Shown here one piece after another: positions 11,287 through 29,698 of a stretch of 64,000 nucleotides of DNA. The notes under the pieces were generated by a model. It saw only the letters and a program-made list of their open reading frames with translations. It was not told the origin of the DNA and ran no database searches. The stretch's first letter is position 1; the number at the start of each line of letters is the position of its first letter. The stretch comes from Comamonas testosteroni (GTDB lineage Bacteria > Pseudomonadota > Gammaproteobacteria > Burkholderiales > Burkholderiaceae_C), in assembly GCF_003569915.1 (NCBI RefSeq), contig NZ_KZ984448.1, forward strand, positions 62,001-126,000. Reading direction: 5' to 3'. The translations under genes were made by a program, and so were the position numbers.

Positions 11287-11356
11287 AGCAAGGGCCGCCC
11301 CGCAGCGAGGGTGTCGTCCCCCTTCAAGGGGGAAGGCGCGAAGCGGCTCAGGGGGA
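11287..11356 (-). repeat. Family A GC-rich multi-hairpin repeat, copy 1 (after eno)
   Basis: Read in the eno sense, this begins 8 nt after the stop: CCCCCTGAG, then CTTCCCCCTTGAAGGGGGACG forming a perfect C5/G5 stem, then CGCTGCGGGGCGGCCCTTGC. The first small stem is altered here (GCCGC against GGCGC in the other copies). It fills most of the eno-ftsB spacer. Confidence 0.8.
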
Positions 11357-11363
11357 CTCCTGT

Positions 11364-12650
11364 TTATCTCAGGTTGTAGAAAGCAGCGCGGCCAGGGTAC
11401 TCAGCCACATCACCCAGATCTTCTTCGATGCGCAGCAGCTGGTTGTACTTGGCGATACGGTCGGAACGGCTCATGGAGCCGGTCTTGATTTGACCAGCGT
11501 TCAGGCCCACGGCGATGTCGGCAATGGTCGAATCTTCGGTTTCGCCCGAGCGGTGCGAGATCACGGCGGTGTAACCAGCGCGCTTGGCCATTTCGATGGC
11601 TTGGAAGGTTTCGGTCAGCGTGCCGATCTGGTTGATCTTGATCAGGATGGAGTTGGCAATGTGCTTTTCAATGCCTTCCTTCAGGATCTTGGTGTTGGTG
11701 ACGAACAGGTCGTCGCCCACCAGCTGAACCTTCTTGCCCAGACGCTCGGTCAGGATCTTCCAGCCATCCCAGTCGCCTTCGTGCATGCCGTCTTCGATGG
11801 AGATGATGGGGTACTTGTCGCACCAGCCAGCCAGCATGTCGGTCCACTGAGCCGAGGTCAGCGTCATATTGCCTTCACCGGCCAGAACGTACATGCCGTC
11901 CTTGAAGAACTCGGAAGCAGCGCAGTCCAGGCCCAGAGCGATTTGCTCGCCGGGCTTGTAGCCAGCTTTTTCGATGGCTTCGATGATCAGCTGAATCGCA
12001 GCTTCGTGGTTTTCCACGGAAGGAGCGAAACCGCCTTCGTCGCCCACAGCGGTGGACATGCCCTTGTGGTGGATGATGGCCTTCAGCGCGTGGAAAACTT
12101 CAGCGCCCCAGCGCACGGCTTCGCGGAAGGTGGGAGCACCCACGGGGATGATCATGAACTCTTGCAGGTCCAGCGAGTTGTTCGCGTGGGCACCGCCGTT
12201 GATCACGTTCATCATGGGAACGGGCAGCTGTGTGCCGCCCATGCCGCCGAAGTAGCGGTACAGGGGCAGGCCAGCTTCTTCAGCAGCAGCGCGGGCCACG
12301 GCCATGGACACGGCCAGCATGGCGTTGGCGCCCAGGCGGCTCTTGTTGTCGGTGCCGTCCAGGTCGATCAGGGTCTTGTCCAGGAAGGCTTGCTCGGAAG
12401 CGTCCAGGCCCAGCACGGCTTCGGAGATTTCGGTGTTGATGTGCTCAACAGCCTTCAAAACACCCTTGCCCAGGTAACGGCTCTTGTCGCCGTCACGCAG
12501 CTCGATCGCTTCGCGCGAACCGGTCGATGCGCCGCTAGGCACGGCAGCGCGGCCCATCACGCCGGATTCCAGCAGCACGTCGCATTCAACGGTGGGGTTA
12601 CCGCGGCTGTCCAGCACTTCGCGGCCTACGATGTCAACAATGGCACTCAT
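11364..12650 (-). CDS. eno: Enolase
   Basis: A 428-residue enolase of normal length. Characteristic stretches are the N-terminal [20 protein letters not shown], the phosphate/substrate loop [10 protein letters not shown], the acidic metal ligands in the VGDDLFVTN region, the catalytic lysine region [11 protein letters not shown] and the signature [10 protein letters not shown]. It converts 2-phosphoglycerate to phosphoenolpyruvate in glycolysis and is also a degradosome component in many proteobacteria. It has its own 327-bp upstream region, so it may be transcribed both from that region and from the pyrG side. Confidence 0.97.
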
Positions 12651-12977
12651 TGCATTTCCTTTGAGGTTTCTGAAATCGGTACGTGCAGGCTGATTTCCAT
12701 CATGAAATCACGCCCAAGCGCTTGTGCATCAAACACAAGCTGCTATTAAAACTTGTGAAGCCGGTTGCCCTCCACCTGCTGCGCGCGCCATGCACGCGAT
12801 CAGTATGAAAGAGGCTGCGGCGGCTATTGTGCACAAATTTGACAGGCCGCTTTAGCCTTGACGTGATGCTGTAATCGAGTTTCTTCTTTGGAGTGACTGC
12901 GGTTACAGGCTCCAGATGCAAAAAAGGCATGACGCCACGGTTCATCGTGTCTGTCATGCCTGCGCGCATCATGGGGG
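12651..12977. other. Gene-free spacer upstream of eno
   Basis: I see no coding frame with family features here. It contains a family B-like repeat at 12711-12752 and must hold the eno leader and probably an eno promoter. I could not identify confident -35/-10 hexamers. Confidence 0.5.
12711..12752 (-). repeat. Family B AT-rich repeat upstream of eno
   Basis: On the minus strand TTTTAATAGCAGCTTGTGTT followed by TGATGCACAAGCGCTTGGGC. The opening (AATAGC) and the GC-step spacing follow family B, and the arms TTGTG/CACAA can form a hairpin. A related half-copy (CAGCACAAGCTGCTATGAAT) occurs at 19340-19362. Confidence 0.55.
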
Positions 12978-13268
12978 TCAAACGCCTTCCACGCAAATCA
13001 TGCGCATGATGGCCGCACCTTCTCGGGCCTTGCGCGCCTTGCGGTACTCGGGCGAGTCGTGGAAGGACTTGGCGGCTTCAAAGCTGGGGAACTTGAGCAC
13101 CACCACACGCTCGGGTGCCCAGTCGCCTTCCAGCACGGCGACCTGGCCGCCGCGCACACAGACTTCGGCGCCATGCACTTGCATGGCTTCGGTGCTCCAC
13201 TTGCGGTACTCGGTGTACTGCTCGGGGTTGGTCACCTCGACGTAGGCAATGATGTAGCCGCTGGCCAT
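12978..13268 (-). CDS. DUF1330 domain-containing protein
   Basis: A 96-residue ferredoxin-fold (dimeric alpha/beta-barrel) protein. It has the DUF1330 pattern: MASGYIIAYVEVTNPEQYTEY, then VHGAEVCVRGGQVAVLEGDW, then VVVLKFPSFEAAKSFHDSPE. Function unknown; monooxygenase-like small proteins share the fold. Its ATG at 13268 lies 2 nt after the kdsA stop, so it is translationally coupled to kdsA. An in-frame TTG at 13274 would overlap kdsA and is less likely. Confidence 0.92.
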   Translation of the reverse strand: MASGYIIAYVEVTNPEQYTEYRKWSTEAMQVHGAEVCVRGGQVAVLEGDWAPERVVVLKFPSFEAAKSFHDSPEYRKARKAREGAAIMRMICVEGV

Positions 13269-13270
13269 GA

Positions 13271-14128
13271 TCAAGCCTCGAAGTGGTTTTCGAGGAAACC
13301 GTTGCGCTTGGTCACATCGTCCAGCGCCACCAGAGTCTCCAGCAAAGCCTTCATGTGCTTGAGCGGAACGGCGTTGGGGCCGTCAGACAGCGCATTGCAG
13401 GGATCGGGGTGGGTTTCCATGAAGAGACCTGCCACGCCCACGGCCACGGCGGCGCGGGACAGCACAGGCACCATCTCGCGCATGCCGCCGCTGCTGGTGC
13501 CGTTGCCGCCGGGCAACTGCACGCTGTGGGTGGCGTCAAACACCACGGGGGCGTTGGTCTCGCGCATGATGGCCAGAGAGCGCATGTCACTGACGAGATT
13601 GTTGTAGCCAAAGCTGGCACCGCGTTCGCAGGCGGTAAAGCTGTCTTCGGGCAGACCGACTTCCTTGGCCGCAGCGCGGGCCTTGTCGATGACGTTCTTC
13701 ATATCGTGAGGCGCCAGGAACTGGCCCTTCTTGATATTGACCGGCTTGCCCGACTGGGCCACGGCGCGGATGAAGTCCGTCTGGCGGCACAGGAAAGCGG
13801 GGGTCTGCAGCATGTCCACGATGGACGCTACATAAGGCACCTCGGCCTCGGTGTGCACATCGGTGAGGATGGGCACATTCAATTCCTTCTTCACCTTGGC
13901 GAGAATTTCCAGACCTTTTTCCATGCCTGGGCCGCGAAAGCTGGTGCCCGAGGAACGGTTGGCCTTGTCAAAGCTGCTCTTGAAGATGAAGTTGATGCCC
14001 AAAGAGGCCGTGATTTCCTTGAGTTGCCCGGCCACATCCATCTGCAACTGCTCGGACTCGACCACACAGGGGCCGGCGATCAGGAAGAAGCGTTTGTCCA
14101 GGCCAATGTCAAAGCCGCAGAGTTTCAT
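13271..14128 (-). CDS. kdsA: 3-deoxy-8-phosphooctulonate (KDO8P) synthase
   Basis: A 285-residue KdsA. It condenses phosphoenolpyruvate with arabinose 5-phosphate to form KDO-8-phosphate for lipopolysaccharide inner core synthesis. Visible family elements are [19 protein letters not shown] at 16-34, [13 protein letters not shown], the [10 protein letters not shown] motif, [13 protein letters not shown] and the C-terminal FMETHPDP. It sits between pyrG and the DUF1330 gene as in many betaproteobacteria, separated from pyrG by a family A repeat. Confidence 0.97.
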
Positions 14129-29436: not shown

Positions 29437-29439
29437 GAT

Positions 29440-29487
29440 AAAACATGCTTCAAGTCTATATATCAAATAGGTTTGTAGCTATCAATA
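29440..29487 (-). repeat. Family B AT-rich repeat between an araC-type gene and its terminator
   Basis: On the minus strand TATTGATAGCTACAAACCTA, then TTTGATATATAGACTTGAAG and CATGTTTTA. Same orientation and position relative to gene and terminator as the copy at 21896-21942. Confidence 0.8.
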
Positions 29488-29502
29488 GAGTAGCAATTCA
29501 AA

Positions 29503-29546
29503 AACAAAAAAGCCACCCGGCGTTTTCAAATCGGGTGGCTTTTTGT
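29503..29546 (+). terminator. Bidirectional terminator between the araC-type gene and pchF
   Basis: AAAAAAGCCACCCGG, loop CGTTTTCAAAT, CGGGTGGCTTTTTGTTTTT: 8-9 bp stem with A- and T-runs on each side. The stem sequence is the same as in the terminator at 21944. Confidence 0.9.
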
Positions 29547-29604
29547 TTTTCCGGCAAGCAAGGGCACAACGCTAAAACAAGCATGTCCCAGCACAGCAAC
29601 CGCC

Positions 29605-29698
29605 GTGCAAGGGCCGCCCCGCCGCACTGGCGGTGTCCCCCTCCGCGAAGCAGAGAGGGGGAAGGCGCGGGGCCGCCTAGGCGTAGCGCCTCAGGGGG
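29605..29698 (-). repeat. Family A GC-rich multi-hairpin repeat, copy 5 (after pchF)
   Basis: Begins 3 nt after the pchF stop codon. In gene sense: CCCCCTGA, an enlarged first stem (GGCGC ... GCGCC with inner GCCTAGGC), then CCCCCTC ... GAGGGGG, then a diverged third part (CACCGCCAGTGCGGCGGGGC) ending CCCTTGC like copies 1 and 2. Confidence 0.8.

Follow-up and report, generated by a model that had tools for sequence, protein, structure and literature searches.

A dispersed hairpin repeat of fixed polarity anchored to stop codons in Comamonas testosteroni and other Comamonadaceae

Why does a GC-rich repeat with several hairpins lie directly behind the stop codons of genes, and is its pairing kept as RNA or as DNA? 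This question is raised by a 64,000-nucleotide (nt) stretch of Comamonas testosteroni (assembly GCF_003569915.1, contig NZ_KZ984448.1, positions 62,001 to 126,000), hereafter the window. A reading of its sequence alone (the sequence-only reading) had noticed five copies of such an element and proposed either an RNA 3'-end element or a DNA target resembling repetitive extragenic palindromic (REP) sequences. We found all five copies, all on the minus strand and each behind the stop codon of a minus-strand gene. With a probability of roughly 0.55, we read the element as a discrete, non-coding, dispersed DNA repeat of the Comamonadaceae that resembles REPs or miniature inverted-repeat transposable elements (MITEs), but is unusual in its fixed polarity and its anchoring to stop codons.

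The strongest feature of the element is its placement. A covariance model built from 28 copies (R1) matched at least 150 places in the C. testosteroni genome, and at least 154 copies were counted in the 968 kb examined, which consisted of stretches picked mostly around R1 matches. Twenty stretches (L179-L198; 400 kb, one copy) had been selected to avoid overlap with known copies and are therefore not a random sample. All 154 copies span the profile nearly end to end, with no partial copy at E 0.01. According to genes called with our own open reading frame caller, 144 of the 154 copies lie 3' of a gene of the same sense, and in 141 of these the stop codon is located at -8 to +15 nt from the first C of the element; 12 copies use the TGA of CCCCCTGA itself as the stop codon of the gene. 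Co-directional gaps hold 108 copies in sense and 6 in antisense orientation, convergent gaps 35, and divergent gaps 3. A preference for orientation and distance, whose genome-wide check had been set beforehand as the refuting test, was clearly found: uniform placement in random orientation within the same gaps predicts 35.0 of 152 copies at such positions, compared to 140 observed (excluding a copy that lies within a called gene and another whose neighbour is unknown). The element had been said to cap gene ends "always", which is too strong, since 10 of the 154 copies have no same-sense gene ahead of them and 3 further copies are more distant. In several of these exceptional copies, the element's TGA closes a long open frame, so that some may be gene-calling errors.

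The paired arms of the hairpins are conserved as pairs, as the sequence-only reading had claimed; covariation exceeds chance by far, so that the second refuting outcome named beforehand did not arise either. Double changes, in which both partners differ but pairing is retained, were already seen in 9 of 24 pairs in the first 28 copies. In a set of 106 copies, they affected 16 of 24 pairs, with 97.7% of the cells paired; on four of five measures none of 500 shuffles scored as high, and on the fifth 10 of 500 did. Likewise, 44 copies from other genera showed double changes in 11 of 24 pairs (0 of 500 shuffles as high). The folding energy of single copies was less striking (z -1.18 to -3.11 for eight copies), and two of the eight minimum-energy folds deviated from the consensus. 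Selection on an RNA fold is expected to retain G-U pairs and to purge A-C mismatches. Setting aside the constant seventh pair, we counted 33 G-T/T-G versus 41 A-C/C-A combinations among 4020 cells (sets A3, A4 and A6; 177 copies), whereas in 22 distinct tRNAs encoded in the fetched loci, two stems gave 13 wobble pairs versus 2 A-C mismatches in 264 cells (Fisher p 0.004, with cells that are not independent). G-U is thus about as rare as A-C, which fits Watson-Crick pairing that is established in the DNA or through copying and then decays neutrally, and the claim that RNA structure is what is kept was not borne out. Counting wobbles against mismatches in this way offers a simple means to separate DNA-level from RNA-level pairing in repeat families.

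The unit proved longer than first drawn, since the 3' arm of the third stem (GCTGTC and variants) and the tail TTGGGGCRYGCCAGTTTT belong to it. Its consensus reads (C)(A/T)-CCCCCTGAG - hairpin 1 - CTTCCCCC ... GGGGGACG - hairpin 3 - TTGGGGCRYGCCAGTTTT. The core starts with CCCCCTGAG and continues with hairpin 1, which has GGCGC, GCGGC or GCCGC stems; between CTTCCCCC and GGGGGACG lies a spacer of 0 to ~27 nt that is able to form its own stem. Hairpin 3 combines an outer stem (GACAGC/GCTGTC and variants) with inner C-G/G-C and apical G-X-G/C-X-C pairs, and the tail downstream of it ends in GTTTT. Similar copies in unrelated flanks defined the boundaries: the start falls at -3 to 0 in 141 of the 200 best pairs, while the 3' ends vary (33 at the end of the core, 67 at 20-25 nt past it). 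We therefore took the unit length as ~105-125 bp. For the window copies (Table 1), the short distance to the stop codon was confirmed, but not its upper bound of 12 nt. Two candidate features of the tail were rejected: a fourth hairpin showed no surplus over permutation (83 of 500 permutations as high), and in a GGCRYGCC palindrome only the central RY step exceeded independence (58 versus 43.2 of 96), the four outer pairs did not.

Table 1. Copies of the element in the window (gene labels marked with an a are those of the sequence-only reading; scores are those of model R1)
Copy	Position	Strand	Distance to stop codon	Parts	R1 score (bits)
1	11256..11355	-	8 nt past eno stop	core 11276-11355, tail to 11256	87.8
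2	14162..14278	-	abuts pyrG stop (0 nt)	core 14182-14278, long H2 stem, degenerate tail to 14162	81.9
3	20284..20380	-	2 nt past FKBP(a) stop	core 20304-20380, tail to 20284	99.0
4	26886..26997	-	15 nt past stop of substrate-binding-protein gene(a)	core 26906-26997	85.4
5	29574..29698	-	3 nt past pchF(a) stop	core 29595-29698, CCTAGGCGGCCCC insert in H1 loop	57.8

The expected family extending over the Comamonadaceae was found, with a match in at least 39 of 200 genomes and at least 23 of 115 genera (best 23 candidates scored per genome). Across the order, at least 5 of 300 genomes matched, and those among the matches listed all belong to the element's own family (best 15 candidates scored per genome). 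Carriers among the matches listed are Comamonas, Acidovorax, Delftia, Paracidovorax, Simplicispira, Diaphorobacter, Verminephrobacter and Hylemonella. Placement is the same in these relatives. In 80 loci of named Comamonadaceae, taken from the matches listed in a pattern scan, 73 carry a total of 89 copies; leaving aside 3 at edges, 85 of 86 copies are in sense orientation, and 82 of the 85 lie at -8 to +20. Loci of other genera, selected by R1 matches, gave 40 of 42 copies in sense orientation, 38 of the 40 at -8 to +13. All 28 copies in 400 contiguous kb each of two relatives, G018 and G043, are in sense orientation and at -8 to +20; both stretches were centred on pyrG and eno, two copies there being known beforehand, and they share ten orthologous sites, so that the 28 copies are not independent. 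When the best 150 candidates were scored per genome, we counted 144 copies in C. testosteroni ATCC 11996, 137 in C. testosteroni JL40, 119 in Acidovorax sp. Leaf191, 115 in C. composti, 98 in a record named Pantoea sp. 18069, 93 in D. acidovorans, 65 in D. tsuruhatensis, 36 in Diaphorobacter caeni, 18 in P. citrulli and 3 in Diaphorobacter aerolatus. Locus L335 (NZ_CACSJA010000001.1) belongs to the 98-copy genome, whose Pantoea record is probably misnamed. Copy number in 24 relatives of the genus ranges from 0 to at least 116 (nine at 97 or more, four at 42-65, eleven at 0-13). Copies are mostly single; one genome (G451) has a tandem of three, 148-149 nt apart (L422:2001-2375). One consensus-like query matched 0 of 50,697 phage records and 2 of 72,556 plasmid records.

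Pairs of copies in unrelated flanks are 95-97% identical across 103-122 bp, and such highly similar units show dispersal by copying. The flanks of G018 and G043 are ~86-98% alike, mostly >91%, and these two genomes have ten sites in common, while three are filled in G018 only and two clearly in G043 only; among three additional weak matches in G043, two have a decayed counterpart and one lacks an orthologous flank. Across 228 pairs compared, orthologous copies at the ten shared sites differ by 11 double changes, 5 single changes that keep the pair and 10 changes that break it. By eye, a copy at the same gene end as copy 3 is present in both genomes. On the 3' side of eno, the element was seen by eye in 7 of 30 loci (from 39 matching genomes), scattered on a small, partly unresolved eno + pyrG tree, and no counterpart of copy 2 was seen by eye within ~147 nt past pyrG in the 29 other loci. 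Homologues of element-bearing genes carry the element in other species beyond expectation (15 of 31 versus 13 of 78, p 0.0013). The gene set for this test was confined to the fetched stretches (935 proteins, of which 141 precede an element), and owing to this limitation some best matches may be paralogues. Pfam matches among the shared element-bearing genes include FtsZ, tryptophan synthase alpha, an amidase, an asparaginase and a periplasmic binding protein.

Some observations at these sites stand apart. The stop codon of the gene before copy 4 is a TGA within a CACCCCCTGA (27013-27022), which equals the element's own start and lies 15 nt ahead of the copy; the same is seen in G018. It looks as if this were the leftover of an earlier copy. 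CCTAGG occurs in 15 of the 154 C. testosteroni copies, and an insert like CCTAGGCGGCCCC or its reverse complement is located in hairpin loops; at two shared copies (about 182 and 190 kb into the stretches), a loop insert of this kind is present in G018 and missing in G043. Perhaps such inserts result from fold-back copying. On the 3' side of pyrG, element-free relatives (G002, G018, G012, G009, G044 and others) show by eye a different hairpin, which reads AGGAGCTGCCAGCGCTTGAA...AGCGCTGGCAGCTTCAGTTTTTGAAGCATGC in several of them and is maybe another 3'-end family. The window also contains two more short dispersed repeats, D6 and D12 (at 5187, 21908, 29453, 62696 and at 8707, 19272, 54291).

On the reading as a dispersed DNA repeat, a unit of ~105-125 bp has spread through copying, and its arms would stay Watson-Crick complementary at the DNA level or via the copying process, as in a hairpin-borne REP- or MITE-like repeat; that the arms are kept as DNA rather than RNA is suggested by the missing wobble preference. 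Copies land, or survive, almost solely in sense orientation within ~15 nt of a stop codon. Judging from G018 and G043, the resulting intergenic allele may then be retained and exchanged between species along with its gap, and the hairpins of one copy may be swapped with those of other copies. Situated between the stop codon and any terminator, the element would be transcribed as the folded start of the 3' untranslated region (UTR) and may mildly shield the mRNA. Several observations weigh against this reading. At the five sites clearly filled in one of the genomes G018 and G043 but not in the other, the two gaps differ from immediately after the stop codon onwards, with no clean insertion. A target duplication was not found (the longest direct repeat at the ends averages 3.10 nt versus 3.17 when shuffled, in the 114 of 154 copies with a placed tail), the consensus has no terminal inverted repeat (its ends, CCCCC and GTTTT, are not complementary), and no mover gene was evident between close copies, where the genes appeared ordinary by eye from their first 70 residues, without a family search. 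One partial copy exists in a relative (L059). The sharing of sites across species could reflect a useful function. Moreover, the pattern-selected set A5, which was excluded from the wobble count, has more G-T than A-C (23 versus 17), and the tRNA control is small (22 genes), with cells and copies that are non-independent.

An alternative is a 3' UTR RNA element selected in place, as an exonuclease barrier or processing site, whose anchoring would reflect its distance to the terminating ribosome. The strict sense polarity and stop distance, the sites common to several species and some genera, and the 11 compensatory double changes that separate G018 from G043 at orthologous copies would fit, but wobble pairs are not preferred, 10 broken pairs were seen in the same comparison, and copy number swings widely between relatives; we consider this possible, though doubtful. 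We regard it as unlikely that the element is a single-strand hairpin transposon entering transcription-opened DNA just behind the terminating ribosome, for example the strand that an R-loop displaces beyond the stop codon. If true, such insertion would explain both anchoring and polarity by a mobile element that reads where translation ends. A classical REP mobilised by a resident IS200-like Y1 transposase, a REP-associated tyrosine transposase (RAYT), appears rather improbable. Our genome has one Y1_Tnp match and 22 of the 24 genus relatives have one too (in G005 below the curated cut-off), but so do 9 of the 11 low-copy relatives. The scan covered 30 Y1 loci, 20 of which (our own included) belong to the genus: 29 lack the element in the fetched stretch, and the other, L086, has one weak match ~1 kb away. 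The GTAG end is absent from the consensus as well. The suggested search for a RAYT thus yielded a candidate, which we rejected as the mover because it has neither flanking copies nor a relation to copy number.

The role in termination or attenuation that had been proposed also seems quite unlikely. It would agree with the placement 3' of genes and with TTTT in many tails, including three of the five in the window, for which the stated absence of a T-run does not hold; it does hold for the other two. But in these three, TTTT does not directly follow a conserved hairpin, the tail has no hairpin beyond permutation ahead of or around TTTT, and the signature of an intrinsic terminator, a stable hairpin directly before a T-run, was not found in the element. 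Within the element plus 35 nt, the share of gaps with a terminator-like hairpin is 26% for convergent (9 of 35) as well as for co-directional gaps (29 of 113), versus 17% for divergent gaps without the element (18 of 106), and 17 of the 35 convergent gaps have a separate one downstream of the element, which may act on either strand. By the same simple scan, 43 of 61 convergent and 111 of 249 co-directional element-free gaps have such a hairpin, compared to 28 of 113 co-directional gaps downstream of the element, though there a shorter stretch was scanned. These counts indicate that the element is no canonical terminator, yet that co-directional gaps bearing it have fewer terminator-like hairpins, which would fit such a role. 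We judge very improbable a ribosome-sensing switch, in which the G5 run pairs with the first or the second C5 run, the first being masked while a ribosome occupies the stop codon. The lengths of the three runs do covary (C1-C2 p 1e-11, C1-G 2e-4, C2-G 3e-3; 209 of 224 copies evaluable), one copy (L133:3490) reads CCTCC/CCTCC/GGAGG across them, and the mean energies of both folds are no more than 1 kcal/mol apart in 57 short copies. In 65 long copies, however, the first C5 is never paired in the minimum-energy fold (122 of 154 copies evaluated), although 62 of the 69 long copies in set A3 retain an intact first C5. Concerted changes of run length may also stem from shared descent or repeat conversion. 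Guide-to-end pairing is known from IS200/IS605 elements, and the covariation may reflect a switch, such pairing, or shared descent.

How does the element compare with known repeats? The window has no Rfam match at gathering score, consistent with the earlier statement that no named family fits, and a description of this repeat family was not found in titles and abstract openings of the openly licensed PubMed Central literature. An integron attC-like site was rejected, since the ends are unlike the attC consensus, and no dedicated search was made. Among the options first proposed, a REP-like DNA target fits best, but without the tags of the known super-families. The GTAG and CGTC super-families are high-copy palindromic repeats mostly 3' of genes (Di Nocera 2013, PMC3733652). 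REPs measure 20-40 bp and often form oppositely oriented dimers with a GTAG or CGTC tag, whereas our element measures 105-125 bp and has three different hairpins in one polarity to the gene. The ends of GTAG REPs often provide the stop codon (PMC3733652), as CCCCCTGA does in 12 of 154 copies here. The unpaired GTAG end is lacking (the consensus ends are CA-CCCCCTGAG and GCCAGTTTT), as is a RAYT gene flanked by the repeat among the 30 Y1_Tnp loci. CGTC REPs have an unpaired CGTC tag, an 8-9 bp stem opening with A-T pairs, a 4-5 nt loop and a CCA tail (PMC3733652); in our element, the reverse strand does show CGTC next to the C5/G5 stem, but two of these letters belong to stems and the stem opens with C-G pairs.

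Two families from Bordetella were compared by description and not by sequence. The Beta-proteobacterial repeat element (BRE) is 75-91 bp long in Bordetella, GC-rich (69%), usually intergenic, and reported too in Delftia, Acidovorax and Verminephrobacter; the 13 Bordetella loci of Table 3 in that paper sit between co-directional or convergent genes (Hot 2011, PMC3110155). BRE forms tandem arrays of variable number; our copies are mostly single, with one tandem of three. For D. acidovorans SPH-1, 13 BRE copies were reported, and for A. citrulli AAC00-1, 4 (PMC3110155), versus our 93 and 18 in other strains and by another method. Bor-1, with a 93-nt model, a predicted shared stem-loop and 128 matching sequences in B. 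pertussis (Cozzuto 2008, PMC2267715), is alike in size and stem-loop. Enterobacterial repetitive intergenic consensus (ERIC) and other MITE-like repeats are dispersed units of ~100-200 bp with folded transcripts, and in Yersinia an orientation-dependent effect of ERIC on the upstream mRNA was reported; ERIC carries terminal inverted repeats and a duplication of its TA target (Delihas 2007, PMC2229807), neither of which was found in our element. Proximity to stop codons, finally, was reported for REPs: the majority of convergent REPs, in P. entomophila as in S. wittichii, are <20 bp away from the two ORF ends (PMC3733652). Whether selection or targeting causes this proximity of short repeats is a question that the family described here can address: polarity is nearly absolute, copies are many, and relatives span 0 to >100 copies, so that gain, loss and effect on mRNA are directly testable, and the family is well suited to studying how short repeats arrive at such sites or persist there.

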